From Bacteroidales bacterium (lineage in GTDB: Bacteria; Bacteroidota; Bacteroidia; Bacteroidales; GWF2-38-335): a stretch of 51,463 nt of DNA. The stretch covers positions 1-51,463 of the forward strand of contig JAFGXD010000002.1 of the NCBI GenBank assembly GCA_016936815.1, given 5' to 3'. Shown here piece by piece: positions 4,895-45,300 of this stretch. Both the position numbers and the translations under genes were made by a program. The notes below the pieces were generated by a model. The model had not been told where the DNA came from and searched no databases. It saw nothing but the letters and a program-made list of their open reading frames with translations. Positions within the stretch are counted from its first letter, which is position 1. Each line of letters opens with the position of its first letter.

Positions 4895-6163
4895 TTATTC
4901 AGCCACAATTATCTTTTTTGCAAATTGTGATGTGTTGTTTATTTTCAGATAGTATATTCCCGGTTCCAAATCAGAGATATCCAGACGATAATCATTATTA
5001 ATTAAGGCTGTTTTGTGCAACGAACCTAAATTATCGTAAAGGTATAGAATTGAATTCTCTCTGCTATTTGTCCAAATAATTAAGTAATCTTTTGCCGGAT
5101 TCGGGTATATTTCATATTCATAAATTTCTTCTTTCGCTAAACTGCTAAATAAGGGAGTACAGTAAAGATTAAAAGAACGGTGCCAGCAACCATCAACATC
5201 AGTTGCAATAAGATAGTAAGATCCGGAAGTATTAACGATATATGGATTAGTATCTGCTCCTAAAAGTATATTATTGTCCAACACCCACTGATATGAAGAA
5301 TAGTTATCCGGACCAGAAATTTCATCAGGATTAAAGATGATTTCAGGTGTGTACTCGTTTAAGTTTGTTGCAAAAAATACCGAATCTGTAATAACAGTAT
5401 TGTATCCGGTTTGTCTCAGATAGGTTGCCAAAGTATCATTCAGTCCCCCGTTAAAATTAAAATTTGTTGGATCGGTCTTAAAAATTGTAGAAAAAATAGT
5501 ACTTGCTGCTAGATAACTTCCTGCAAGTGAAGAATGTACGCCGTCAGGGCCATGAAGTTCAACACTAGGATATGTATTTAAACAGGTATTCCATGCGAGG
5601 CCAATAGGTGTAACAATTTCATTAAATAGCGTATTGTTTAAATGTACATACTGATTATAAATTCTTGCAATACACGATTGGGTAGTTTCACTGGTAATAT
5701 TTAAACCACCATCGTTCCAGTAGGAAGAAGGAAGTCCGCCTTCCATTGCCCAACCGGCAAAATAGACTATTCTTGTACACTGATTGTAATTTTTAATTTT
5801 ATCATATAAAACAACATTCCCGTTTACAATCATTGAATTTATGTATCCCTGCGACCAAACATAACCACCCTGATTGTCCTGAACAACAATATAATCCCAG
5901 TCTTTTGAATAAATATAGCTTTCAGTTACCGCACTGCTGTCGTGTCCCGTCATGCTAGTAGTTGTATAAACATACATTCCGCCAGGAGCATACATTTCCA
6001 TTTCAGTAACAATCCCTGCCGAATCAGCTAATCCTTTTACCAGATCTGGCATGTTATTGTAATAAGTAAAACTATTACCTAGAAACAAAACTTTCGTTGT
6101 ATCCTGAGCCTTCAGATAAAAAGTTGACAGAAGAAAAAGAACAATAAAACAGTTCGCTTTCAT
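4895..6163 (-). CDS. Secreted SGNH-type hydrolase with T9SS sorting domain
   Basis: Signal peptide (residues 1-19, cleavage near KA|QD), then an SGNH-hydrolase-like domain. Block I is LFLGNSFTYY with the likely nucleophile Ser31; block V is GPDGVHSS with the likely Asp207/His210 pair. It resembles the GDSL/DUF4886 group. Around residues 283-335 there is an Ig/PKD-like segment (SYQWVLDNN ... GSYYLIATDVDGC). The last ~80 residues are a type A T9SS sorting domain (IYPNPAKDYLIIW ... KKIIVAE), so the protein should cross the outer membrane through SprA and be anchored or released by the sortase. The substrate, presumably an ester such as acetylated polysaccharide, is not known. It converges on atpG. 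Confidence 0.8.
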   Translation of the reverse strand: MKANCFIVLFLLSTFYLKAQDTTKVLFLGNSFTYYNNMPDLVKGLADSAGIVTEMEMYAPGGMYVYTTTSMTGHDSSAVTESYIYSKDWDYIVVQDNQGGYVWSQGYINSMIVNGNVVLYDKIKNYNQCTRIVYFAGWAMEGGLPSSYWNDGGLNITSETTQSCIARIYNQYVHLNNTLFNEIVTPIGLAWNTCLNTYPSVELHGPDGVHSSLAGSYLAASTIFSTIFKTDPTNFNFNGGLNDTLATYLRQTGYNTVITDSVFFATNLNEYTPEIIFNPDEISGPDNYSSYQWVLDNNILLGADTNPYIVNTSGSYYLIATDVDGCWHRSFNLYCTPLFSSLAKEEIYEYEIYPNPAKDYLIIWTNSRENSILYLYDNLGSLHKTALINNDYRLDISDLEPGIYYLKINNTSQFAKKIIVAE

Positions 6164-9002: not shown

Positions 9003-11546
9003 TTAGTAAAAAACCATTTTTGATTTCTTGTTTTTGCTCGAAAGAATATAAATTCCCGGGGTTATACCTGAAATATCTATTTTTTGATTGAAATTACTAA
9101 TCTGTGTTTTCAAAATTACTTCTCCTTTTAAATTGTACAAAGTAATTGCCGAACCCGGCTCTGCATTTATTGTAATAAAATCGTTAGTCGGATTTGGAAA
9201 TGCAAATGGCTGGTTTTCAGTCAAAAGCTCATTATTATTAACTAATCCGTTTTCAATAACAAAATCCCAAATGCCTCTTCCGTAGGTTCCAAAACGCACT
9301 GTTTTGTTTGAAGGGTTATAGTCAACTGTCCAATATACTTGGTCGGGCGCCGAACCATCTCCCAAATCGTACCATTGATTTTCGGATGTTATATAAACAT
9401 AAGGCCCTATGTCGGTTGCAGCAAAAAGCATTTCGTCGTTGTCTGTAATTGCAAGTTCGTATGTCATTGTGCCCGGTAATCCGCTTGTAATTTCAGTAAA
9501 CGAATTTCCATTATTAATAGAAACAAATGCTCCCGGATTTGAATAACCCGAGCCCGCCACATAAACAGTACCCAAACTTGTCTTAGATGGCACAATAGCT
9601 GCTCCATATAAATAATTTCCATCGGGACCGTCGAAGCCTGCAGTTTCAACCCATGTTGTTCCTCCGTCGGTTGAGGTAAAAAAATCGCCATTTCCGTTCA
9701 TTACATACCTGTAATCTGTGTTTATTGTTGAATATGCTATTGCAGAAATAGATGAACTTCCGGAATTTCCACTAAAATCGTAAGGAAGTTCGGAGTGGTT
9801 TATCCATCCCGAAAAAGAAGTTAATAGAAACAGATGCGTTCCTGCTGTACTAGTGCCTCCACCAAGATAAACACGGTTTGGATAATCAGGATCGGCCATA
9901 AGAGGCGGAATCCAAAACTGACCGCTACAAACAAAATCCCACCAGTCGGAGAATTCTGGGTTGGTAACTGCTTCGGGGTAGTATGCAGCAAAACCCGGAT
10001 ACACCATCCAAACAGAATTTCCTCCATCCGAGGAAACTATATGTCCGTAATCTCCTGAGACTACTTGAACAAAATCTTCTGTAGCAATTCCGGAATTTGC
10101 TACGCAAAGCTGGTAACCCTGATCTTGTGATCCGGCAAAAATTACGTTTTCGTTGGTACGATGGGAATAAACTGAATACAACTGACCAACATTAAGGTTT
10201 TCGAGGGAAATATTCTGGACTGTATTTAACTGATTGTTAGAAATATAAGTTCCTCCATCGGTATTTATATATACAAATTCATTTCCTTCTGAATCGCGGT
10301 ACGAGTTAATTCCCGGAATATCGGCATGCAGTCTTGCCGGCATATTGTCGTAATAATCCCACCAATTGTTGAGTTTGGTAAAAGTTTGACCTCCATCTGA
10401 AGATTTGTAACATTCCACTCCGCCAAAATAAAGAGTATTGGAGTTGGTTGCTGAAATTTCGAAAGAGTTTTTAAAGAAGGGGGTTTCTTCAACAGTTCCC
10501 TTTGTAGTAAATGATAGTCCTGCGTTATCGGATTTGTAGAATGTAGTTTGCCCCGATTCTGAAACGGCAATGTAAAGGGTAGTAAGTCCGGAAATCTCGG
10601 TTCCTTCCAGCAAAACACTTCCCGGCATGGAATAGCTTATTGAAGAAACTGAAGAAAGAGAATAATCGGAGTTTATAATAGACAAATTATTATTTTCGAG
10701 CAAATAAATTGTTTCTGCACCGTTTTGCGCAGACCAAATATCGAAATTTCCCTCGTTTCCGTATTCTGATTCAAGAAATGAATGAATATTTGTAAACGAT
10801 TGGCCGTGGTTTTCTGAGACATAAATACTTGTCTTTTTTTCCCAATTTGAATAATCCCACTCCATAGCAAGAAGGTAGATAGTTTTATTGGAATTATTTA
10901 CAACTATTGTTCTAATAACAGATCCCCAGTTTGCAATTGAAGAAAGTCCACTTGAGGCAGTCCAGCTAATGCCGTCGTTATCGGAATAGAAGAAACCCGG
11001 AACGCCCCATCCTCCATTAGCAACAAGGAGTCTCTTGCCGCTGTAATGGTCAATTTTTCTAATCATCTTAATATCATCAATCTTAAAGAAATCGTTAAGA
11101 ATTCTCCATCCCAAACCATTTTTTGAAGCTTTCCAGATATTTCCTCCAGAGGATGCAAGATAAATGGAATCCTCCTGAAAATCGTATTCCACAAAATGAG
11201 TTCTGCCTGCCAGATTTCTGCTTCCTGTTTCTCTCCAGTTTCCTGTTAGTAACCCTCCGGCAATTGATACATAAGATGTGGTTCCTTTAGAATTGCTATA
11301 GTTTTTTTGTTTTTGAACTCTGTTATTGTAATTTTCCGTTCTCCAATTTACACCGGGGCCCGCTTTATGCATTAAGTCAATCCACTGTTTACGAAGTTCT
11401 TGTTCGTTACCCTCGTCGTTTTCGAAAACCACCGTGCGAGTTGGTTTGGGCAAAGCTTTGTTTTTCTGTACATGCAGATTTTTGTGCCAAATTATTGCTA
11501 ATAAGGTAATTGAAATTGCTGCCAAAGGAAGAATCAGTTTTTTCAT
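9003..11546 (-). CDS. T9SS-exported beta-propeller protein with BNR/Asp-box repeats (847 aa)
   Basis: An N-terminal hydrophobic signal segment (LILPLAAISITLLAII) is followed by a large region of sortilin/BNR-like repeats with Asp-box motifs such as SSDGGQTFTKL, SDNAGLSFTTKG and TSTDGGTTWVETAG, typical of beta-propellers. The last ~80 residues (AFPNPTNDFITINAEPGS ... GIYILSSKNKKSKMVFY) are a type A T9SS sorting domain. It is probably displayed on the cell surface. No catalytic motif can be named. The propeller also resembles the 766-aa protein at 14042. Transcribed leftwards with a likely terminator at 8788-8843. Confidence 0.8.
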   Translation of the reverse strand: MKKLILPLAAISITLLAIIWHKNLHVQKNKALPKPTRTVVFENDEGNEQELRKQWIDLMHKAGPGVNWRTENYNNRVQKQKNYSNSKGTTSYVSIAGGLLTGNWRETGSRNLAGRTHFVEYDFQEDSIYLASSGGNIWKASKNGLGWRILNDFFKIDDIKMIRKIDHYSGKRLLVANGGWGVPGFFYSDNDGISWTASSGLSSIANWGSVIRTIVVNNSNKTIYLLAMEWDYSNWEKKTSIYVSENHGQSFTNIHSFLESEYGNEGNFDIWSAQNGAETIYLLENNNLSIINSDYSLSSVSSISYSMPGSVLLEGTEISGLTTLYIAVSESGQTTFYKSDNAGLSFTTKGTVEETPFFKNSFEISATNSNTLYFGGVECYKSSDGGQTFTKLNNWWDYYDNMPARLHADIPGINSYRDSEGNEFVYINTDGGTYISNNQLNTVQNISLENLNVGQLYSVYSHRTNENVIFAGSQDQGYQLCVANSGIATEDFVQVVSGDYGHIVSSDGGNSVWMVYPGFAAYYPEAVTNPEFSDWWDFVCSGQFWIPPLMADPDYPNRVYLGGGTSTAGTHLFLLTSFSGWINHSELPYDFSGNSGSSSISAIAYSTINTDYRYVMNGNGDFFTSTDGGTTWVETAGFDGPDGNYLYGAAIVPSKTSLGTVYVAGSGYSNPGAFVSINNGNSFTEITSGLPGTMTYELAITDNDEMLFAATDIGPYVYITSENQWYDLGDGSAPDQVYWTVDYNPSNKTVRFGTYGRGIWDFVIENGLVNNNELLTENQPFAFPNPTNDFITINAEPGSAITLYNLKGEVILKTQISNFNQKIDISGITPGIYILSSKNKKSKMVFY

Positions 11547-11720
11547 GACTTTTTTTTGTAAAAGAAATAAAAAATTTATGGAAAATAGAATTTTCCTCCT
11601 TTAAATGTCTAGTTATAAATTAAGTCTACAGTTTAATATGCACATTAAATGCGTAGAAGAAAATAAATATTATTTGGAAAGTAAAGTGATAATTTTAAAT
11701 GCTTACAAAATAAAAAAAAT
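11547..11720. other. AT-rich upstream region of the 847-aa secreted protein gene
   Basis: No gene is seen. A small palindrome, GGAAAAT-AGA-ATTTTCC, lies near 11580-11596. On the minus strand an AGGAGG run occurs about 50 bp before the start at 11546, too far to serve as its ribosome site. No convincing TAnnTTTG element for the downstream gene was found. Confidence 0.4.
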
Positions 11721-11773
11721 GAGTGAGTTTAGTTTTAGCCCATTTCGAACGTAAACTTAACTCACTCTTTTTT
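11721..11773. terminator. Terminator of the tRNA-Gly/tRNA-Leu unit
   Basis: 15-bp stem with one mismatch, GAGTGAGTTTAGTTT (11721-11735) with AAACTTAACTCACTC (11753-11767), directly behind the 3' end of tRNA-Leu on the minus strand, with eight T residues following on that strand and six on the plus strand. Confidence 0.88.
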
Positions 11774-11774
11774 G

Positions 11775-11859
11775 TACCTCGGGCCGGGATCGAACCGGCA
11801 CGACCATAATGGTCACAGGATTTTAAGTCCTGCGCGTCTACCAATTCCGCCACCAAGGC
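11775..11859 (-). tRNA. tRNA-Leu (anticodon TAA)
   Basis: 85-nt class II tRNA. The acceptor arm is GCCTTGG paired with CCGAGGT. The anticodon stem CAGGA/TCCTG holds the loop CTTAAAA, giving anticodon TAA. The long variable arm GACC-ATTAT-GGTC is typical of tRNA-Leu, and the T arm is GCCGG-TTCGATC-CCGGC. The 3' CCA is not encoded. Its 5' end forms the last part of the tandem repeat at 11854-11959. Confidence 0.96.
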
Positions 11860-11959
11860 ATCTCCTTCATTTGCGTGGCGGGAACTCGTAAACTCGGTTC
11901 CGCCACCAAGGCATCTCCTTCATTTGCGTGGCGCAATCCGGTAAACATGATTTCGCCAC
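11854..11959 (-). repeat. Two tandem 53-bp structured repeats copying the tRNA-Leu 5' end
   Basis: On the minus strand, units at 11959-11907 and 11906-11854 have the same layout: GTGGCG, a variable 20-nt core, CGCCAC, then GCAAATGAAGGAGATGCCTT plus G. Outer arms and tails are identical in both units. The cores differ but keep pairing (AATC/GATT in the first, GAAC/GTTC in the second). The end of the second unit is the first six bases of the tRNA-Leu gene, which then continues with the same GTGGCG. So each unit ends in a copy of the tRNA 5' end and opens a hairpin where the tRNA has its D arm. Confidence 0.85.
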
Positions 11960-11965
11960 CACGTT

Positions 11966-11988
11966 AAAAAAAATCCCGCTTTGCGGGG
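11966..11988 (-). terminator. Terminator-like hairpin after tRNA-Gly
   Basis: On the minus strand: CCCGC-AAA-GCGGG followed by A and eight T residues, starting 5 nt after the 3' end of tRNA-Gly. No promoter is visible between it and tRNA-Leu, so it may act as a partial terminator. Confidence 0.75.
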
Positions 11989-11992
11989 AGAG

Positions 11993-12065
<73 letters not shown>

Positions 12066-12075
12066 AAAGGGATTG

Positions 12076-12105
12076 CAAAAATACATCTTTTTTTGTTTTT
12101 GCAAA
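12076..12105 (-). promoter_or_regulatory. Promoter of the tRNA-Gly/tRNA-Leu unit
   Basis: On the minus strand: TTTG (12105-12102), an 18-bp spacer and TATTTTTG (12083-12076). Transcription would start only a few bases before tRNA-Gly. Confidence 0.75.
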
Positions 12106-14041: not shown

Positions 14042-16342
14042 TTATTCAATAACAATAATTTTAGTTACAGCATTGTCATTTCCTTCAAGTCTAATAAGGT
14101 AAGAGCCTTTCGCCTGATTACCCAAATCAATAGATTGAAAAGAATTTTCTATTGTGCTAATATAAACACATTCTCCTAAGAGATTGTAAACACTAATTTT
14201 TGTATTTTCAGCATTGCTTACATTAACCAGTCCATTTGATGGATTCGGGAATATTTTAACCAATTTCTCATTAATCAAATTATCAGAAGAAACACTAAGT
14301 GTTGAATATGCAGAATTATGAACCAGTTTGTTAACATCGTCCTGAATAAAAACTACAACATTTAAATCAGTTCCGCCTGTTTCCTCATAAAATGTAGTAT
14401 TCATGTCGTAAGAAAAAGATTGAGTCCAAGGTGTTCCAACCACAAAATTAGCATTAGTTCCGTTAGCATCAGGCAAATATTTCATTAGAACATGAAAAAA
14501 TTCTGTTTCACCATTAGTACCAACGTTGCCGGTTGTAGTTCCTTCAATTACAGCAACTCTAACTGTACCATTTAGATTGTAGAAAGGGTTAATTGTAACA
14601 TCAACAGTAATTACATCGCCAGCAAAAGAATGTTGAGCCTGAATATCGAAATAGGGAACAATAGATTTATAATCATTAAACAAAGCTTGTGTGTAGTTAG
14701 CGGGATGATAATCATTTGCGCCTTCAACTTTTAAATCCGGAATACCTGAAATATCGCCGTAATAATCTAATCTGGTTTGACAATCGGCATTTTCGTATGC
14801 ATCACCAAATACCTGATGTTTGATAACAGTTGCATTGGCATGGTTGCCGGAAATAAAATCAGCTGAATTATGAGTGATTAATGCGTCAAAAATGGGGTTT
14901 GCACTAGCACATGGCACACACCAGTTAGCGGTAAACTGTTCGTGAAGAACTCTTTTTACAGGCACGGTATTCATAAGAACAACATCCATTGTAAATCCGT
15001 CATTTGAACTATTTTCGTCACCGGTAAGACTTGTGTAAACTTCAATTTCATAAATGCCGGCAGCAGAGAAATCTTCAGTTGCAGTAAAGTTATAATCAAT
15101 AGTTTCTCCAGGATTTAATGTTCCAGAGAAAGTTTCAGTAACAGGAGTACCTCCATTAAGAATATAAGTAACATCGAAACCTGTTTGTGCATTTAATCCC
15201 ATATTCATAATAGATACTGAAATATTTTCTGATGCAGTTAGTGGCAAGCCATCAACAGGATTTGAAATTGTAATTGCAGCAACATCGTTATCATAAGGAT
15301 CGGTAATAACACCATCAAATTTATAAATACCACCGGTACTAGCGTCGGTATTAAAGTTTCCAACCCATCCGCAGGTATTGTTAACCCAAGCTGTGGTAAG
15401 CATCTGACCTGGGAAACTGGAAAAATCTTCCCAATAATCTCCACCAAACAAACTAAAAGATGCTCCTGATTCGTTTCCTGTACTAACCCAAGTATTTGGA
15501 GTTCCGGGAACATAAGCTAAATCGCTTGAATATAGATTTCCTGCAGGTGTAAAAACAGTCCAAGTTTCACCACCATCGGTTGATTTGGCGATAGTATAAT
15601 TATCAATTTGGTAAGCCAAACCGTAGTTTGCGTCTTTGAAACTTATTGTAAATTGGTTTGTAAGAGTAGTAGTATAAACCGACCATGTATAACCTTTGTC
15701 GGTTGATTTAAAAACTCTTCCTTTGTTAGTTGAAAACCAAACATTGTCTCCCACAACAGAATAGAAACCTGTAACACCGTATTCATCGGCAGCAATTGGG
15801 TCGGGAATATTTGCTTGAGGAACTCTAGTCCAGTTTTCCCCACCATCGGTTGTTGTGTAAAACTCAAAATATCCACCATTAGGATCACCCTGACACCAAC
15901 CATTGTTGGCATCCCAGAAGTGAATTACATTTGGAAAGCCTGCAGGCGCAGCAAAAGCAGCTGTAGTTTGGGCAGTCCAGGTTGTACCACCATCGGTTGT
16001 TTTAAGAATTTTTCCACCACCGGCAGAAGTGTTAAAAACAGGCATCCAGGCTGTATTGGCATCTAAACCAAAAATCATTGCTGAACCATAACCTGAAGTG
16101 TAGCCGGTAACCGTTCCGGCAGTCCAAGTAGCACCGCCATTAGTAGTTCTTGTAAATTCTGTAATGTAATTTGTTGTAGTTGTGCCATCGTAAGCAGTAG
16201 CCCAAACTACATTTTCATCTACAGCGGAGATATATTTAATACCTCTGGAAGCAGTTGAAAAACCTGTTGCCTGTTCAATCCACTGTGAAAAGGAAGTGGA
16301 GCAAACAAAAGCAAGAATTGCAAAAAGATAGATTTTTTTCAT
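14042..16342 (-). CDS. T9SS-exported protein: propeller, CARDB-like and Omp28/thioredoxin-like domains (766 aa)
   Basis: Signal peptide (MKKIYLFAILAFVCSTSFS). Residues ~20-340 form a BNR/YCF48-like beta-propeller with repeated KTTDGGTTWTAQ and KSTDGGETWTVF motifs. Residues ~355-450 look like a CARDB-type Ig domain. Then an Omp28-like thioredoxin-fold domain carries a CxxC motif in ANWCVPCASANP (Cys475 and Cys478). The last ~80 residues (IFPNPSNGLVNV ... NAVTKIIVIE) are a type A T9SS sorting domain. Probably surface-exposed; the CxxC suggests redox activity or metal binding, unproven. It follows a related gene (16410) with only 67 bp between. Confidence 0.82.
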   Translation of the reverse strand: MKKIYLFAILAFVCSTSFSQWIEQATGFSTASRGIKYISAVDENVVWATAYDGTTTTNYITEFTRTTNGGATWTAGTVTGYTSGYGSAMIFGLDANTAWMPVFNTSAGGGKILKTTDGGTTWTAQTTAAFAAPAGFPNVIHFWDANNGWCQGDPNGGYFEFYTTTDGGENWTRVPQANIPDPIAADEYGVTGFYSVVGDNVWFSTNKGRVFKSTDKGYTWSVYTTTLTNQFTISFKDANYGLAYQIDNYTIAKSTDGGETWTVFTPAGNLYSSDLAYVPGTPNTWVSTGNESGASFSLFGGDYWEDFSSFPGQMLTTAWVNNTCGWVGNFNTDASTGGIYKFDGVITDPYDNDVAAITISNPVDGLPLTASENISVSIMNMGLNAQTGFDVTYILNGGTPVTETFSGTLNPGETIDYNFTATEDFSAAGIYEIEVYTSLTGDENSSNDGFTMDVVLMNTVPVKRVLHEQFTANWCVPCASANPIFDALITHNSADFISGNHANATVIKHQVFGDAYENADCQTRLDYYGDISGIPDLKVEGANDYHPANYTQALFNDYKSIVPYFDIQAQHSFAGDVITVDVTINPFYNLNGTVRVAVIEGTTTGNVGTNGETEFFHVLMKYLPDANGTNANFVVGTPWTQSFSYDMNTTFYEETGGTDLNVVVFIQDDVNKLVHNSAYSTLSVSSDNLINEKLVKIFPNPSNGLVNVSNAENTKISVYNLLGECVYISTIENSFQSIDLGNQAKGSYLIRLEGNDNAVTKIIVIE

Positions 16343-26569: not shown

Positions 26570-29500
26570 ATGAGATTTGTAATTTTTGCGTTGATGCTTT
26601 TTGTGTTTGAAACCTCTATGGCTCAGCCTTTTGGAAATGAGTGGATAGACTATTCGGCAAAACATTATAAAATTCAGGTTGTTGAAACAGGTTTTTATCG
26701 CATTACTCATTCTAATATTTCCGGTTTTTCAGATATTATTGCTACACCTCTTAGTTCTTTGAAACTGTTTTACAAAGGAGAAGAACAACCAATAATGGTT
26801 TACGATGCTAATGGAAATAATTTCTTTGACGTTGCCGATTTTTTCGAATTTTATGGTGAGAAAAATAACGGAAAGGTCGATACCATAATGTATATTGAAC
26901 CTTCATTTCAAACCAATCCCTACTATTCTTTAATAAACGATACTTCAAGCTATTTTCTCACATTTAATATTAGCACCCCCGGTTTGCGTTTTGCTCCTGA
27001 AACAGATGTTGCTTTTGCCGGTTATTCGCCTACAACTTATTGTTTGAAAGAGGTTTTTCAGGAATTTACTTCAAACCAGTTTATTGAACTTTCTGGGCCT
27101 TTGCTCGATGTTCATGAAGGGTATTTTGACAGCTACATTGATATTAACGGCTATTATCCTCTTAGCAAAACAAAAACTTTTTCTACTCCAAATGTTGTTG
27201 GGGGACAAACAGCCATTTTCGATTTTGCTTTTATTAGTGCTTCTAATGAATCTACAATAACAGGATACAATCATCATGTTCAAATGAGTCTTGCCGGAAC
27301 TACTTTGCTTGATACTACATTTCTTGGAAAAAAATCAATTTACAGAAAATTCTCTGTTTCTTCATCTTCTTTATCATCTTCAACATCAGCTGTTTTTAGT
27401 GTTGTTAATGATATTGGACAGTCAACCGATAAAAATGCTCTGTCGTGGATTAGACTTAAATATCCACATTCATTCGATTTTGAAGGAGCCGGAAGTTTTG
27501 AATTTCTACTGCCAAATTCTTCTTCAGGAAAAACCTATTTGGAAATTACAAATTTTAATTTTGGTAGCTCAACACCACGACTTTACGATATTACTAATAA
27601 AAAAATTATTAGTCTTGTTAACGATGCAGGGGTTCTTAAGGCTCTAGTTCCTAATTCTGCACACGATTATAGAAAATGTATTTTGGTGGCTCAAAACGGT
27701 GTGCTATCGATACCACAACCAATTTCTTTTGTAGCACTTACCGATTACACGAGCTATGGAAAAAACTCCGATTATATAATTATTACCAATAAAAAACTTA
27801 TTACCGGGGCTAATCTTTATAAGGCTTACAGGCAATCAAGCGGTTATAATCCGGCGGTTTTCGATGTAGATCAGATTTATTTGCAGTTTGGTTATGGAAT
27901 AGATAAGCATCCTATGGGAATTAGAAATTTTTTAAATTATATAATAAATAATTATACTGAGGTTCCAAAACATCTTTTTTTTATGGGGAAATCTGTAAAA
28001 TTTAATAGTTTCAGAAACAATACATACGCATGGGAACAATGTCTTGTTCCTTCTTTCGGTTCCCCGGCATCCGACATTTTATTTAGTGCAGGATTAAACG
28101 GGACTCATTTTCAACCTGCTATTCCCACCGGTAGAATATCTGTTCGTTCTAACGATGAAATTTCTCTTTACCTTAACAAAGTTGAAGAGTATGAATCAAA
28201 TATTCCTGCTTTGTGGATGAAGAATATTATTCATTTTGGGGGTGGTGGTCATACTGCAGAACAGGTAGCAATTGATAATTATTTGAATATTTACAAACAG
28301 CAAATTGAAGATATCCATTTTGGGGGTAAAGTTTCCGATTTTAGAAAAACGAGCTCAGACCCTATCCAAATTTCTATGTCGGATTCAATTATTAATCTCA
28401 TTAACAACGGTGTATCTATAGTTACCTTTTTTGGTCACGGATCTACCAACGGTTGGGATATTAGCATTGATGAACCCGAATCTTACGACAATTACAAGAA
28501 ATATCCATTATTAATTGCCAATTCTTGTCTTTCAGGAGATATTCATATTCTTAACGACAATATTAGTGAAAGTTGGGTTGTAAATCAGAAAGGAGCTATA
28601 GGCTTTATTGCTTCTACCGGTGAGGCTTTAAGGCAATATCTTCATGGTTTTTCTACTGAATTGTATAAACAGATTGGGTTTTCAAATTATAATCAAGCTA
28701 TTGGAGTTCAACTTCAAAAGACAATTGAAACTTGGCAGACCGGCTACTGGACAAACCCTTACGTTAGAAACACTTGTTACGAATTTTCTCTACATGGAGA
28801 TCCCGCTGTAGTTATTAATTCTCACGAAAAACCCGATTTGGAAATTACTAATTCCGACCTTTATTTTAATCCGGCCATTATTAGTAACGAAGTGGATTCC
28901 TTTACTCTGAATTTAGGTATTTCGAATATTGGAAAAGCTAGCAGAGATACTTTTATGGTAAGAGTAAGAAGAACAATGCCTAACGATAACGATACGGTTG
29001 TGCTTTTTCCGGCTCCGGGTGTTCTTTATCGAGATACTGTTTCAATAAAAATGCCTGTAGATTTTATTAACGGACCAGGTCTTAATTCCTTCGATTTATA
29101 TGTTGATGCCTCGTTTTTAGTTGATGAACTTCGGGAAGATAATAATCAGATTTCTCAGGAAGTAATTGTTATTTCTAACGATGTTATTCCTATATGGCCT
29201 TACGAATATGCAATTTATCCGGAAAATACTGTTAGTTTAAAAGCTTCGGTAAACGATTTATTTTTGGGTAGTTCCGGATTTGCTTTTCAAATGGATACAA
29301 GCGATATGTTTAATAGTCCCTCTCTGCTTTCAACTACCTTAACAGCTTCCGGTGGAGTTATTGAATGGACACCTCCAATTACTCTTCAGGATTCAATGGT
29401 TTATTATTGGCGTGTAAGCAAAATTCCAACAGGCGATGAAGAACAAAACTGGAAAGAAAGTTCATTTATTTATATTCCCGGAAAACAGGGATGGTCGCAA

Positions 29501-31510
29501 GCTCATTTTTTTCAATTTAAAAAAGATAAATTTCAATTTATTAATTATGAAAGAGACCCTCGTTTGTTTAGCTATGTAAATTCGCCCCGTGCTTTGCATT
29601 GCCACAATATTGGAAGTCCATCTACTGCTCAGTATATTCTTGAAAAAATTGCATTTTTTATAGATAATGTAGTAGTTGATTACACAAGTTGCGGTACGGG
29701 TTCGAAAATGCATGTTGCTGTAATCGACAGTTTTACTTTGGCAACAATTCCAACAAGCGATACATGTCCGGGACGACTCAGACCCGATTATTACAAAAAG
29801 TTCTATACCGGCGATATTGCTACAGTTGCAGCAAACACACAGGCTATGGTAGATTACATTAATAATGTGGAAGATGGACATTATGTTCTTATGTATTCTT
29901 TTTTTAGTGGTAATTTTCAAGAATGGGAAGAACCGGTTTATGTGGCAATGGAGGGTTACGGATCGGATGATATAAGAACTATACCAAATAATTATCCTTA
30001 CATTTTATTTTTCAAAAAAGGCGATCCAACAACTGCTGTAGAAGTAATTGGAGAAAGTGCCAACGACGAAATAGACCTTTACGTAAATCTCGATGCCGAT
30101 TATACAACCGGAAATATTACCTCTGTATTAATTGGTCCAGCATACGATTGGAAAACATTGCATTGGAAAAAAAGTCCCTTGGATTTTCCCGATTACGATA
30201 TGGCAGAAATAAGTATTTCAGGAATTAGATTAGATGGTACAAGTGAAACTGTTTTAAGCAACATAGTACCTCCCGAATACGATATTTTAGATTTATCTCC
30301 AATTATTGATGCTGGGGAATTCCCTTACTTAAAAATGCAGCTTGAAACAGAAGACGATTCTTTAAAAACACCCCCTCAATTAAATAAGTGGCAACTAACT
30401 TACGATGCTGTGCCAGAAACCGCACTGGATCCTGCTTCCGGTTTTTATTTTTATGCCGATACGGTCTATGAAGGCGAAACAGTAGAATTTTGCCTTTCAA
30501 CAAAAAATGTTAGCGATTACGATATGGACAGCCTATTGATTCTTTACATTATGCAAGACCGTAATAACAGACTAGATACCATAGCTTTGAAAAGATGCAG
30601 ACCTCATCCTTCAGGAGATGTTTTGCTCGACACAATTAGAATAAATACAATAAATAAACAAGGTCTTAACAGCATTTGGATGGAAGTAAATCCTTTCAAT
30701 CCTTCAGTGGGAGGTTACGACCAGTTGGAGCAGTTCCATTTTAACAATATTGCACAGAAATTTTTCTACGTTCGCTCCGATAATATTAATCCTTTGCTTG
30801 ATGTTACTTTCGATGGAATGCACATTTTAAACGGCGATATTGTTTCTGCAAATCCTGAAATACTTGTGAAACTTAAGGATGAAAATAAGTATCTGGAACT
30901 AAACGACACTTCTCTATTTGCTCTATTTATTAAGTTTCCGGGAGAAACAGACAGCAAGAGGGTATATTTTACAAATATTGAAGGCGAAGAACAATTGATT
31001 TTTACCCCGGCGAATCTTCCAAATAACTCGTGTGAAATATTATACCAGCCAACCTTTGAATCAGACGGTGTTTATGAACTTATTGTACAGGCCAGAGACA
31101 AATCAAATAACGAATCTGGTGATTTTGATTATAGACTAACTTTTGAAGTAATTAACAAATCAACAATAACCGATGTTTTCAATTATCCGAATCCATTTTC
31201 TACATCAACAAGATTTGTTTTTACCCTTACCGGTTCCGAGATACCCGACGATTTTAGAATACAGATTTTAACAGTTACAGGCAAGCTGGTTAGAGAAATT
31301 GGCCTTGATGAACTTGGCCCAATACGAATAGGCAGAAATATTACTGAATATGCTTGGGATGGAAAGGATATGTTTGGAGATCAACTGGCTAACGGCGTAT
31401 ATTTTTACCGGGTTTTTACCAAAATTAATGGTGAATCGGTTGAAAAAAGAGAGACAGGTGCCGAAAAATATTTCAAAAAAGGCTTTGGAAAAATGTATTT
31501 GATGAGATAG
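26570..31510 (+). CDS. Gingipain-type (C25) cysteine peptidase, PorU2-like T9SS sortase
   Basis: 1646 aa. Signal peptide (FALMLFVFETSMA|QP). After a beta-rich N-terminal part comes a C25 domain with catalytic His623 in TFFGHGSTNGW and Cys653 in LIANSCLSGD. Long Ig-like/CARDB regions follow. The C-terminus is a FlgD-like module (YPNPFSTSTRFVF ... AWDGKDMFGDQLANGVYFYRVF) ending in KKGFGKMYLMR. PorU removes the sorting domain from T9SS cargo and attaches an anchor; this longer form fits the PorU2-like variant rather than the ~1150-aa PorU. It could instead be a C25 cargo protease, but the missing type A tail and FlgD-like end argue against that. Confidence 0.82.
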   Translation: MRFVIFALMLFVFETSMAQPFGNEWIDYSAKHYKIQVVETGFYRITHSNISGFSDIIATPLSSLKLFYKGEEQPIMVYDANGNNFFDVADFFEFYGEKNNGKVDTIMYIEPSFQTNPYYSLINDTSSYFLTFNISTPGLRFAPETDVAFAGYSPTTYCLKEVFQEFTSNQFIELSGPLLDVHEGYFDSYIDINGYYPLSKTKTFSTPNVVGGQTAIFDFAFISASNESTITGYNHHVQMSLAGTTLLDTTFLGKKSIYRKFSVSSSSLSSSTSAVFSVVNDIGQSTDKNALSWIRLKYPHSFDFEGAGSFEFLLPNSSSGKTYLEITNFNFGSSTPRLYDITNKKIISLVNDAGVLKALVPNSAHDYRKCILVAQNGVLSIPQPISFVALTDYTSYGKNSDYIIITNKKLITGANLYKAYRQSSGYNPAVFDVDQIYLQFGYGIDKHPMGIRNFLNYIINNYTEVPKHLFFMGKSVKFNSFRNNTYAWEQCLVPSFGSPASDILFSAGLNGTHFQPAIPTGRISVRSNDEISLYLNKVEEYESNIPALWMKNIIHFGGGGHTAEQVAIDNYLNIYKQQIEDIHFGGKVSDFRKTSSDPIQISMSDSIINLINNGVSIVTFFGHGSTNGWDISIDEPESYDNYKKYPLLIANSCLSGDIHILNDNISESWVVNQKGAIGFIASTGEALRQYLHGFSTELYKQIGFSNYNQAIGVQLQKTIETWQTGYWTNPYVRNTCYEFSLHGDPAVVINSHEKPDLEITNSDLYFNPAIISNEVDSFTLNLGISNIGKASRDTFMVRVRRTMPNDNDTVVLFPAPGVLYRDTVSIKMPVDFINGPGLNSFDLYVDASFLVDELREDNNQISQEVIVISNDVIPIWPYEYAIYPENTVSLKASVNDLFLGSSGFAFQMDTSDMFNSPSLLSTTLTASGGVIEWTPPITLQDSMVYYWRVSKIPTGDEEQNWKESSFIYIPGKQGWSQAHFFQFKKDKFQFINYERDPRLFSYVNSPRALHCHNIGSPSTAQYILEKIAFFIDNVVVDYTSCGTGSKMHVAVIDSFTLATIPTSDTCPGRLRPDYYKKFYTGDIATVAANTQAMVDYINNVEDGHYVLMYSFFSGNFQEWEEPVYVAMEGYGSDDIRTIPNNYPYILFFKKGDPTTAVEVIGESANDEIDLYVNLDADYTTGNITSVLIGPAYDWKTLHWKKSPLDFPDYDMAEISISGIRLDGTSETVLSNIVPPEYDILDLSPIIDAGEFPYLKMQLETEDDSLKTPPQLNKWQLTYDAVPETALDPASGFYFYADTVYEGETVEFCLSTKNVSDYDMDSLLILYIMQDRNNRLDTIALKRCRPHPSGDVLLDTIRINTINKQGLNSIWMEVNPFNPSVGGYDQLEQFHFNNIAQKFFYVRSDNINPLLDVTFDGMHILNGDIVSANPEILVKLKDENKYLELNDTSLFALFIKFPGETDSKRVYFTNIEGEEQLIFTPANLPNNSCEILYQPTFESDGVYELIVQARDKSNNESGDFDYRLTFEVINKSTITDVFNYPNPFSTSTRFVFTLTGSEIPDDFRIQILTVTGKLVREIGLDELGPIRIGRNITEYAWDGKDMFGDQLANGVYFYRVFTKINGESVEKRETGAEKYFKKGFGKMYLMR

Positions 31511-39351: not shown

Positions 39352-42300
39352 TTGAAAGACTTTTTTAAATATTTTGTAAGCGGAACACTAATGGTGATTT
39401 TTTTGTCATTTATGCCTAACGTAAATGCCGAAGACTTCCGAAATCATTACATTTCAACACCACCAGATTCAATAATTCCAAGTATTGATACACCTGTTAC
39501 TCTGCCTTACCCCATAAACACTAACGGCGAATATCCTTTAAATGGACAACCGCCTAAATCGGCACTTTATTTAGATCAACCTTCAAATGTTACAACCGAT
39601 GTGCAATACGATGCCGAAAACGACGAATATATAATTCAGGAAAAAATCGGGAATATTAATTACGGCCCACCTATTGTTGTTTCTTCAGAAGATTACAGAA
39701 AATACGATTTCGACAGGGCTATAAATGATTATTGGAAACAGAAATTCAGAACAGAATCTTTTACTTCTCAAGGCGGCCTTATTCCAAAAATTAATCTGGG
39801 TGGTGATTTAGGCGATGCTATCGGTCCGATTGATATTAAACCGCAAGGCTCTGCTGAACTTATTTTTGGATTGCAAATAAACAAAATCGAGAATCCTCAA
39901 TTGCCAATAAGACTTCAGAGAACTACTACTTTCGACTTTCAGGAAAAAATACAAATGAATGTTACCGGTAATATTGGCGACCGATTAAAATTAAGCACCA
40001 ATTATAATACTGAAGCTACTTTCGATTTCGAAAATAAAATGAATCTTCAATACGAAGGAAAAGAAGATGAAATAATTCAGAAAATTGAAGCAGGAGACGT
40101 TAATCTTCCTCTTTCAGGATCTCTTATTACCGGTAGCCAAAGTCTTTTTGGTATTAAAACCGAAATGAAATTCGGAAAACTTACTGCCACAACAGTTTTC
40201 TCTCAACAAAAAGGTAAATCCCAGGTTATTGAAGTTGAAGGCGGAGCACAAACCAACGATTTTGAGGTTTATGCAGATTCTTACGAAGCAAACAAACACT
40301 TCTTTCTTGCGCAATATTTCCGAGACAGATACGATGAGGCAAATTCTCAACTTCCAACAATTATTTCTTCGGTAAACATTTCAAGAGTTGAAGTTTGGGT
40401 TACCAATAAAACAGGAAACTACGAGGAATCCAGAAACATAATTGGTTTTATGGATTTGGCCGAAGAATACAACGTAGAAACAGGTCTTTCAAACATTTAT
40501 GCACAAGATTATGTGTACCCTGAACCTATAATTGATTATATTCCATACAACGAGCAGAATAACCTTTATACCGAAATGACAACAACTTATTCGGGTATTC
40601 GTTCCATTAACGATATTTCCAGCACACTTGCAGGCTTGGCAATGGATCCCACTAATTTTGTTGCAGGAAGAGATTACGAAAAAATTGAAAACGCTAGAAG
40701 ACTAAAAGAAACCGAATATACACTTAACCGCGAATTAGGTTATATTTCTCTTAATTCTTCTCTTAATGCCGACGAAGTTCTTGCTGTTGCTTTCGAATAT
40801 ACAACGCGTGACGGTAAAGTTTATCAGGTTGGTGAATTTTCTAATGGTGGTATTCAGGCTCCTCAAACGCTTATTGTTAAGCTTCTTAGAGGAACATCTT
40901 TTACTCCAAGATACCCAACCTGGAAGCTAATGATGAAAAACGTTTATGCGCTCGGTGCTTACCAAATAAATCCACTCGATTTTCAATTGCATGTTATGTA
41001 TCAAAACGACAAAACAGGCTCCGAAATAAATTATCTGCCCGAAGGTGCAATTGCAAATACTATATTATTGAAGATTCTAAATCTAGATAGAACAAACTCA
41101 CAGGGCGATGCCTCACCAGATGGTCAATTCGACTTCCTTCCCGGAAAAACTATAAATCCAACTAATGGAAGAATATATTTTCCTGTTTTGGAGCCTTTTG
41201 GAAGTCATTTGCGAAAGAAAATTACCGACAATAATCCGGCAAATGAAGAACTTAACGCAATTGCCGACTATTACGTTTTTCAAGAACTTTACGATTCTAC
41301 CCAAAGTACAGCTCAACAAAGAGCAGATAAAAATAAATTCTTGATAAAAGGAAAATATCAATCATCCTCAAGTTCTGAAATAGCTCTTAATGCTTATAAT
41401 ATTCCTCAGGGTTCTGTGCAAATAACTGCCGGTGCTGCACAGTTGGTCGAAAACATTGACTACACGGTAGATTATAATCTTGGTAGGGTAAAAATTCTTA
41501 ATCAGGGTTTGCTCGAATCAGGAACTCCCATAAAAATTTCTCTTGAATCTAATACCATGTTCAACATTCAGAGTAAAACTCTAATGGGAACTAATCTGGA
41601 TTACAGATTCTCTAACGATTTTAATATTGGAGCTACAATTCTTAATCTTACCGAACGACCTCTTACTCAAAAAACCAGTATTGGCGACGAACCTATTTCA
41701 AACACAATTTGGGGCGTTAATGCAAATTACCGCACAGAAGCTCCATATTTAACCAAAATGATAGATAAATTGCCATTCTTGGAAACAAAAGCTCAGTCTA
41801 TTATTACTACCAATGTTGAATTTGCTCAACTTCTTCCCGGTCATCCAAAACTTAAGGGCATAGATAAAAGTGGGGTTTCTTACATAGACGATTTTGAAGG
41901 CAGTAAAACATCAATAGATATAAGGTCTTTTGCAGCTTGGACTATTTCCAGTACTCCCTCCGGTAATTTTCCTGAAGGAATTCTTAACGATTCTGTTTGG
42001 TATGGCTATAACCGAGCTAGATTAGGTTGGTACGTAATTGACCCGATTCTTAACCGAAAAAGTGCTAATCGTCCCGACCATCTTTCCGATGACGAACTTT
42101 CAAATCACTTAACCAGAGAAGTTTACGAAAACGAGATTTTCCCTTTTAAAGAAAGTCAAAATGGTATTCCAACAAACATAGCGGTTCTTAACCTGGCTTT
42201 CTACCCTAGCGAAAAAGGGCCTTACAACTACGACGTTAATCCTACCTCAGTTTCGGCAGGTGTTAATGCAGATGGAAAACTTAACAATCCAATTTCTCGT

Positions 42301-45300
42301 TGGGGTGGTATCATGAGAGATTTACAAACCAACGATTTTGAAGCTGCAAATATTGAGTTTATTGAATTTTGGATGATGGATCCATTTGTTTACAATAAAG
42401 ACCATAACGGCGGGCAGCTTTATTTTAACCTTGGAAATGTCTCGGAAGATATTTTGAAAGATTCGAGAAAATCTTTTGAAAACGGACTTCCTATTACCGA
42501 AGAAGCAACTTTGGTAGACTCAACTGCATGGGGTAGAGTACCAATTCAGCAGGCTTTGGTAAATGCATTCGATAACGATGCAAATTCAAGAACTTATCAG
42601 GATGTTGGGCTTGATGGTTTACGAACCGACGACGAAAGATCCTTTTTCAATCATTATGTCAATGCCGTAAAAGCAGCCCACGGAGAAACCTCAGCAGCTT
42701 ATAATCAGGCTCTTCAGGATCCTTCAAGCGACGATTTTATGTTCTTTAGAGGAACCGAACAAGATAATGACCAATTAGGCATTTTAGATCGCTACAAAAA
42801 ATATAACGGACTAGAAGGAAACTCGCCAACCTCAGAGCAATCTACCGAAAGCTATCCAACATCTGCTACAACAATTCCAAACGTTGAAGATATTAACCGA
42901 GATAACACACTTAGCGAAACAGAAAGTTACTTCCAATACAGAATAGACCTTAAGCCGGAAACAATGGAAATAGGAGAAAATTTTATCTACGACAAAATTG
43001 ATGCTCCTGTAACCTTAGAAAACAGCACAAAAGATACCGTAACTTGGTATCAGTTTAAAATTCCAATTCAGGCTTGGGAAAAAGCTGTTGGTTCAATAAG
43101 TGACTTTAAATCAATTCGTTTCGTTAGAATGTTCCTTACAGGCTTCGACGAAGAAATATTCTTAAGGTTTGCAACTATGGATCTTGTTAGAGGCGACTGG
43201 AGAAAATACCAGTTCTCTATGCGCGAACCGGGTTTCTATCCTGCTCCTTCAAATGGAAATAATACTGAATTCGATATTTCTGCTGTGAATATTGAGGAAA
43301 ATGGAAAACGACAGCCAATTAATTACGTTCTGCCTCCTGGTGTTTCGAGAGTTATTGACCCAACAAACCCACAACTTCGTCAGCTTAACGAACAGTCTAT
43401 TGTATTAAAAGTCTGTAATTTAGAAGATGGTGACGCCAAAGCTGCATATAAAAACGTAAACATGGACGTTAGGCAGTACAAAAGACTGGAGCTTGAAATT
43501 CATGCCGAAGAAAATGGAGAACCGCTTAACGATGGGGATTTACGTGCTTTCTTAAGATTGGGAACCGATTATCAACAAAACTATTACGAATATGAAGTTC
43601 CTTTAGTAATAACACCTCCCGGTTCTTATAACAACGACAATGAAACTGATAGAGAAATTGTTTGGCCAAGTTCAAACAGAATAGATTTCGATTTCGAACT
43701 GCTACAGGAAGTAAAACAAAAACGAAACGACTTGTTGCGAAATGGCGATATTCTTATTACCGACATTTACGAATTTAATAGTGGAAAATCCAGAATTAGA
43801 ATAAGAGGAAATCCAAACCTTTCCAATATTAAAACAATTATGATTGGTTTACGAAACCCCAACGAACAAACCAATCCCGATCCCGACGACGGACTTCCTA
43901 AATGTGGTGAAGTTTGGATGAACGAATTAAGACTTTCCGATTTTAACGAAAAAGGCGGATGGGCTGCCATTGGTAGAGTAAATGCACGCCTTGCCGACTG
44001 TGGAACCATTAATGTTGCCGGTCAGACTAGTAAACCGGGTTTTGGTAGCATTGAAAAGAAAGTACAGGAAAGAAGTCAGGAGGACGTTTACCAATACGAT
44101 ATTGCTTCTAATTTGGAACTTGGCAAATTCTTCCCGGAAAAAACAGGCGTGCGTATTCCAATGCACGTAGGATACTCGGAAGGAATTATTAATCCTCAAT
44201 TTAACCCACTTGACCCCGATATTCCTCTTAAAGTAGCAATGAACGACCCAAATATTACACAAGAACAAAAAGACTCAATTAAGTTCTTTGCTCAGAATTA
44301 TACTAAGAGAAAGAGCTTGAATTTTACTAACGTTAAAATTAACAAAAGCACAACAAAACCAAAGATTTACGACATTAATAACTGGGCCGCCAATTATTCA
44401 TTCAGTGAAATGTATACAAGAAATGTAAATACTGAAAAAAATCTTACAAAAAATTATAGAGGAGGAATCGCCTATAATTACAACACAACACCAAAAAACT
44501 ATACACCTTTTAAAAGTGTAAAAAATAAAAACCTTAAGCTTATTAAAGATTTTAACTATTATCTTTTGCCACAACAATTGTCGTTTAGAACAGATTTAGA
44601 TCGAAGGTATAATGAATTGAAATTAAGAAATATAAGTACCCCAGATATGCTTATTGAGCCATCTTATAATAAAGATTTTACCTGGAGTAGGCTTTACGAC
44701 CTAAAATACAACCTTACCAAAAATATGAAGATGGATTTTACGGCTACAAACCTTGCCAGAATAGACGAACCCGATGGCGTGGTTGATAAAGACCTGTACA
44801 AAACCGAATACGATTTATGGAAGGACTCTGTAATGACAAACCTCAAAAATCTTGGAAGAACAACTCAATATTCTCACCAATTAGACCTTACTTATACAAT
44901 TCCAATTAATAAAATTAAGCAGCTAGATTGGGTTTCTGCTTCAACTCGTTATAGTGCAACTTACAACTGGACTGCCGGGCCTGCACTTCCCGACTCTACT
45001 GATTACGATCCGGGTAATACAATTAGAAACTCCAGAAATATGCAGGCAAATCTGCAGTTAAACATGCTTAATCTTTATAATAAAGTTCCTTATCTTAAGA
45101 AGGTTAACCAAAAATACAGGTCAAGAGGCAACCAAAGAAAACCGGAGAAAAAATTCGAAAACGTTCAGTATCCCGGTAAAGATGAGGATAAAGTTCACGT
45201 TCGACTTTCTGCCAATGTACCCAAATTTATTAACCACAAACTTAAAACCGAAGATGTTGAAATAAAGGTGCTTGATACCTTGGGTAAAGAAATTAAAGGA

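Follow-up and report, generated by a model that had tools for sequence, protein, structure and literature searches.

A tRNA-Leu(TAA) gene in a genome of the Bacteroidales (assembly GCA_016936815.1, contig JAFGXD010000002.1) is preceded by two tandem repeat units derived from the tRNA itself. As read from the sequence, the general plan of such a unit is a copy of the 5' end of the downstream tRNA, about 15 nt long, followed by an apex and then by an arm that is antisense both to the copy and to the real tRNA. Sequence comparison indicates that units of this plan are real and more widespread than first noted, and that their structure is kept in one genus and one family at least, with a function that is putative. 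At a probability of roughly 0.4, we propose that they form an undescribed class of tRNA-Leu leader, a cis-acting RNA that may shield or tune the maturation of tRNA-Leu and that may have arisen by duplication around a palindrome in the D-loop.

Two tRNA-derived units between tRNA-Gly and tRNA-Leu

The window, meaning the whole 51,463-nucleotide stretch analysed, carries the units on its minus strand in the spacer between tRNA-Gly and tRNA-Leu(TAA) (Table 1). A sequence-only reading of this DNA had described two exact 53-bp units ahead of tRNA-Leu, and this description is confirmed: in the register of the repeat tool, the copies span 11845-11897 and 11898-11950, spaced by exactly 53, with hairpins at 11875-11906 (proximal) and 11928-11959 (distal). 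The outer arms GTGGCG/CGCCAC and the tail are the same in both units, and the inner arms are AATC/GATT and GAAC/GTTC, as that reading had stated. The start it gave for the feature, 11854, lies 6 nt within the tRNA gene. Its claim that each unit repeats the tRNA 5' sequence holds in full for the proximal unit, whereas the distal unit has only GGTGGCG, after AACGTG. The unit is tRNA-derived, as had been supposed, and its 3' arm is antisense to the real tRNA and not to the copy alone, a feature missed earlier.

Table 1. Features of the tRNA-Gly/tRNA-Leu locus in the source genome, in order of transcription
Feature	Position	Strand	Basis
Promoter-like TATTTTTGC (Bacteroidota -7 type), ahead of tRNA-Gly	12075..12083	-	read from sequence
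tRNA-Gly(GCC)	11992..12065	-	ARAGORN; Rfam RF00005
Terminator-like hairpin CCCGC-AAA-GCGGG-A-T8 in tRNA-Gly/unit spacer	11966..11987	-	sequence
Distal unit hairpin GTGGCGAAATCATGTTTACCGGATTGCGCCAC	11928..11959	-	repeat and pattern search; predicted fold
Distal unit tail GCAAATGAAGGAGAT, same as proximal tail	11913..11927	-	sequence
Proximal unit segment 1, 15-nt copy of tRNA-Leu 5' end, GCCTTGGTGGCGGAA	11898..11912	-	identical to 11859-11845
Proximal unit apex CCGAG-UUUA-CGAG	11885..11897	-	same apex in families f8 and f99 and dispersed in relatives
Proximal unit segment 2, antisense arm TTCCCGCCAC, complementing segment 1 and real tRNA 5' end	11875..11884	-	
Proximal tail GCAAATGAAGGAGAT, running into tRNA	11860..11874	-	sequence
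tRNA-Leu(TAA); 5' end is segment 3, 3' acceptor strand is segment 4	11774..11859	-	ARAGORN; Rfam
Inverted repeat followed by T-run, likely terminator behind tRNA-Leu	11715..11773	-	inverted repeat

The Bacteroidota-type promoter has the consensus TAnnTTTG (-7 type). The terminator-like hairpin precedes both units, and no obvious promoter of the TAnnTTTG type was seen between it and tRNA-Leu. Such a hairpin with a T-run is common to tRNA-Gly(GCC)/tRNA-Leu(TAA) spacers in several families (six loci), and downstream of it there is often no evident new promoter. Elsewhere in the window lie a Peptidase C25 protein (1646 aa) and several others that bear sorting tails for type IX secretion (26570-31510, 9003-11546, 14042-16342 and 4895-6163), features that place the DNA in Bacteroidota, as well as a very long ORF of 2493 aa (39352-46833).

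A pattern search for GTGGCG-N10-36-CGCCAC returned this single locus in the 3.58-Mb genome, so the unit hairpins are not background. Neither ARAGORN nor Rfam called a complete tRNA or cloverleaf in the units, and a distorted complete tRNA or a tRNA pseudogene was rejected on this basis. Rfam covariance scans of the units found only tRNA in or near them and no curated family, rtT included; a TPP riboswitch was detected elsewhere in L295. The earlier statement that no element of such form has been described thus agrees with both Rfam and the literature searched. That reading had also likened the units to the repeats behind E. coli tyrT, which lie downstream of the tRNA, copy its 3' end and include the rtT RNA. 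The likeness, tandem repeats beside a tRNA gene that contain a piece of the tRNA, is a loose one, and identity with a tyrT-type repeat was rejected, as the present units stand upstream, copy the 5' end and carry an antisense arm.

Distribution, designs and conservation of the units

The Gly-Leu gene order, often with a terminator-like hairpin between the genes, is common across families of the order, and most of these spacers are short and lack a unit; in the only sampled congener (G001) the spacer is 53 nt long and unit-free. In a pattern search of 393 genomes of the order, a member of another family (G346) showed the same layout of two units before its tRNA-Leu(TAA), with the proximal sequence GCCCAGGTGGTGGAA-CCGAGTTTACGAG-CTCCCACCAC and the distal hairpin GATGGAATAAGTTTACCGATTCCATC before it. 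The arms there are GTGGTG/CACCAC instead of GTGGCG/CGCCAC, and each pair fits its own tRNA. Further units, sought with a covariance model (R1) and a tighter pattern, occur in G198 (family f99, at a contig end), in G303 (f8) and in genus g25 (family f25). Order-wide, the tighter pattern gave 10 matches in 7 of the 393 genomes and none in the reversed control; nine lie 53-212 nt ahead of tRNA-Leu and the tenth at a contig end. Related units stand before tRNA-Leu genes (TAA, CAG, GAG, CAA) in three families besides that of the source genome, which makes four within one order. The design at the CAG, GAG and CAA isoacceptors and the dispersal of the apex core in relatives are further features that the earlier reading had missed.

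These results bear on the simplest alternative, a recent chance tandem duplication private to the source genome, which the earlier reading had tied to a lack of related units in close relatives. The sole other genome of the genus does lack the unit, and the source genome has it at a single locus, but units occur in other families and the two-unit layout of G346 has a compensated arm, so we regard a private duplication as very improbable. The units are sporadic all the same, being absent from most families as well as from the congener, and this counts against the cis-acting leader proposed here. Among 327 genomes drawn from the phylum, matches were found only in the source genome and in one unrelated place, which suggests that the strict form does not extend beyond the order. 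A loose hairpin plus tRNA-Leu pattern run over GTDB contigs gave, among the matches listed, mostly GC-rich genomes, and no match that was fetched precedes a tRNA. A link to phage was also rejected, since the apex pattern had no match in viral contigs, and none of the 8 matches to a looser pattern is close to a tRNA.

The association with leucine tRNAs was also seen when the upstream regions of 114 tRNA genes were scanned for a copy of each gene's own first 13 nt: the copy was present at 15 of 45 Leu genes, a figure that is not a prevalence because many loci were fetched through unit matches, and at 0 of 69 other tRNA genes, barring one tRNA-Val pseudogene. In a second set, built on 76 tRNA-Leu upstream regions fetched from 31 relatives, 26 of 82 Leu genes passed a looser cut-off, some of them by chance.

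Units in the upstream regions from the 31 relatives show three designs on one common plan, in which the unit has a promoter or an upstream tRNA on one side and the tRNA gene on the other, often in tandem. The apex is usually CCGAG-loop-CGAG. A mini apex of the first design extends to more genera of f25, for example before the GAG genes of G732 and G733 (copy GGTGGTGAAA, arm TCACCACC). The second design is that of family f8 (G222, G366, G008), in which the copy is followed by a conserved domain of about 70 nt and then by the antisense arm; these units stand ahead of CAG, CAA, TAA and GAG genes and are tandem in G222. The domain, CCGACCGU..AAUUGCUCCGGUGGAGCAAUUUAGGGAGGGGCCAGGCUGCAGGGAUGGCCAA, recurs in five tRNA-Leu leaders of several isoacceptors and is strongly conserved between loci and genera, while the outer helix tracks each tRNA (GGATGGC/GCCGTCC, GGTGGC/GCCACC, GAATGGC/GCCATTC). 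The arm of G008, CCAATTCCGCCATC, complements the real tRNA exactly and fits it better than it fits the copy. Having no match in Rfam, the f8 domain is a candidate for a new RNA class. The third design, in family f99 (G283, G398), has an inserted hairpin and the acceptor-like closure GCCCA/TGGGC.

Another possibility, already raised in the earlier reading, is that the units are RNase P decoys or a source of small RNAs, with RNase P cutting at the copied 5' end and its helix to release an RNA of about 50-100 nt. The 5' ends of the units equal the mature tRNA 5' end and are seated on a helix, and some units close an acceptor-like stem (GCCC/GGGU, GCCCA/UGGGC); against this, the closure is weak and variable and most units lack a 3' RCCA-like end. 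We consider such a role improbable.

Copy and antisense arm change together, unit by unit, each fitted to its own tRNA. Over 17 units, the share of cells that pair is 94.6%, compared with 31-66% in slid controls, and four pairs change on both sides (GC/AU, CG/UA), a conserved structure with compensating changes upstream of a gene, as looked for in a cis-regulatory leader. Compensating changes in palindromes can, however, arise by DNA-level correction without selection on RNA. Genus g25 has units before both tRNA-Leu(CAG) and tRNA-Leu(GAG), with a period of 103-107 and, for each gene, one or two copies that can be read. In every case the proximal copy agrees with its own tRNA (GATGGCGG at CAG, GGTGGTGG at GAG) and is complemented by the 3' arm. 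Identity at the two loci is 100% for the copy, 81/96% for the apex and 84/75% for the 3' arm, as opposed to 52/61% for the spacers. Recombination with the tRNA can refresh the copy, but the antisense arm cannot be refreshed by that route. Together, the changes on both sides of pairs and the conservation in g25 bear out the earlier suggestion of a kept RNA structure, selected or otherwise maintained across species. In six g25 tRNA-Leu(GAG) spacers, a second small hairpin lies between unit and tRNA, and its arms also compensate (GTTAGG/CCTAAC, GTTAGA/TCTAAC).

A possible role in tRNA-Leu maturation

Since segment 1 is identical to segment 3, the predicted pairings 1:2 plus 3:4 and 2:3 plus 1:4 would exclude each other. 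This predicted arrangement of four segments resembles trp-type attenuators and other leaders that alternate between mutually exclusive pairings, although here the controlled product would be a tRNA rather than an mRNA, and no leader peptide or terminator switch was seen. According to the cis-acting model, the 1:2 hairpin would close first in the nascent pre-tRNA, sequestering the false 5' end together with the antisense arm so that the true acceptor stem 3:4 and the RNase P site can form. Because 1:2 can form during transcription before the tRNA exists, the hairpin plus a free tRNA is probably the normal state. The alternative pairing 2:3 would free segment 1 for segment 4, and the tRNA could then not mature from its true 5' end. 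In this way the yield of tRNA-Leu would be shielded by the leader and might also be set or regulated by it; without the hairpin, tRNA-Leu output would fall.

Folding calculations, which ignore tRNA tertiary structure, modification and kinetics, often pick 2:3 plus 1:4 as the predicted minimum-energy fold. For the full Gly-Leu transcript, the predicted native acceptor pairing is 0.057 in the source genome versus 0.997 in the unit-free congener. However, values below 0.2 were also obtained for 20 of 79 unit-free Leu leaders, so the predicted misfold was dropped as stand-alone proof. Nor did native tRNA folding improve in the predictions when the antisense arm was scrambled, because the bare copy competes too. 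The most striking statistical signal is the antisense itself: the best duplex of the leader with tRNA nt 1-27 has a median of -25.0 kcal/mol with units versus -14.5 without (p=6e-14, only a guide because the groups were defined by presence of the copy and the units are related by descent). It is plausible that the UUUA apex is antisense to the D-loop (GTTTAC versus GTAGAC); as a general feature this pairing is weak for the f25 type and is kept as a remark only.

A more elaborate version of control, in which the f8 domain of about 70 nt would be an aptamer-like sensor in a class of switches governing tRNA maturation, with leader and tRNA competing for partners, and would serve genes of several Leu isoacceptors, is conceivable, and we consider it rather unlikely.

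Palindromic repeats and the origin of the units

Repeat insertion is the main rival to a cis-acting role, and we judge it a serious possibility that falls short of even odds. It holds that REP-like palindromes enter the D-loop of tRNA-Leu genes directly behind GGCG(G)AA and that tandem duplication of leader and tRNA then restores the tRNA, with a selfish or neutral outcome. The units would expand, shrink and homogenise by recombination and have no regulatory job, the hairpin persisting through DNA palindrome dynamics or because self-sequestering units are the least harmful. REP elements are GTAG-/CGTC-tagged palindromes (PMC3733652). The units share with them the form of short intergenic palindromes and an apex core that is dispersed in relatives; they differ in that no GTAG/CGTC tag was seen, the arms are tRNA-derived, and in the source genome the many dispersed copies of a REP element were not found, the units being confined to tRNA-Leu.

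Several observations agree with insertion. Three tRNA-Leu genes carry insertions at exactly the D-loop site, after GGCG(G)AA or GGTGAAA: the second CAG gene of G366 (end of L358), with a 55-nt insertion beginning CCGAG; the CAG gene of G729 (L355), the only tRNA-Leu(CAG) gene found in that genome, with the 20-nt palindrome CCTGTCTGCCGACAGGCAGG; and a GAG pseudogene of G742 (L348). Dispersed copies of the apex 15-mer AACCGAGTTTACGAG occur in 21 of 379 genomes, with about 80 matches versus about 10 in the reversed control; the copies are intergenic and number 11 in the congener and 29 in G168. The tRNA units with a UUUA apex belong to three families (f1, f8, f99), all of them among the roughly 12 of 120 with genuine dispersed copies, and tandem copies are near-identical, spacers included. 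On the other hand, dispersed copies usually run on as YTC-RRCGAAGYY-AAT and lack a tRNA-antisense arm, g25 units are better kept between species than their spacers, and the f8 domain is kept across loci and genera. Moreover, the antisense arm tracks each isoacceptor, and in f8 it fits the real tRNA better than the copy. We place control or shielding of maturation and repeat insertion close together and favour the cis-acting RNA.

The REP-like motif AACCGAGTTTACGAG-YTC-RRCGAAGYY-AAT occurs in G001, G168, G336, G742-G744, G303 and others, and is apparently confined to the order; in G168, AACCGAGTTTACGAG directly follows the REP-like palindrome ATTCCGACGTAGGTCGGAA. A parallel at another tRNA was seen in the Gly-Leu spacer of G040 (L019), where the 3' half of a broken second tRNA-Gly copy is interrupted by a palindrome (..GCGGGT-insert-GATTCGAGTCCCGTCTTTCGCT).

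For the favoured cis-acting leader, we infer an origin in which a palindrome entered the D-loop of tRNA-Leu and the sequence around it was duplicated. The simplest history would begin with this insertion, after which a whole tRNA was regained by duplication, followed by tandem expansion and retention in some lineages. Integrative elements usually target the 3' half of a tRNA. They are alike in that a short identical tRNA segment flanks the insert and in tandem accretion, whereas the insert of a unit is only about 50-160 nt, lies at the 5' end or D-loop and has no recombinase.

No published description of a copy/antisense leader of tRNA-Leu was found in the literature, the search covering open-licence papers, and to our knowledge no cis-acting RNA switch on a tRNA gene has been described that is built from the tRNA's own copy and its antisense. 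If functional, the units would be a way of setting leucine tRNA supply in one order of Bacteroidota. If not functional, they would still be a clear record of recurrent insertion of a palindromic repeat into the D-loop of tRNA-Leu genes, with working tRNAs remaining afterwards, which would be a route for sequence exchange between repeats and tRNAs.
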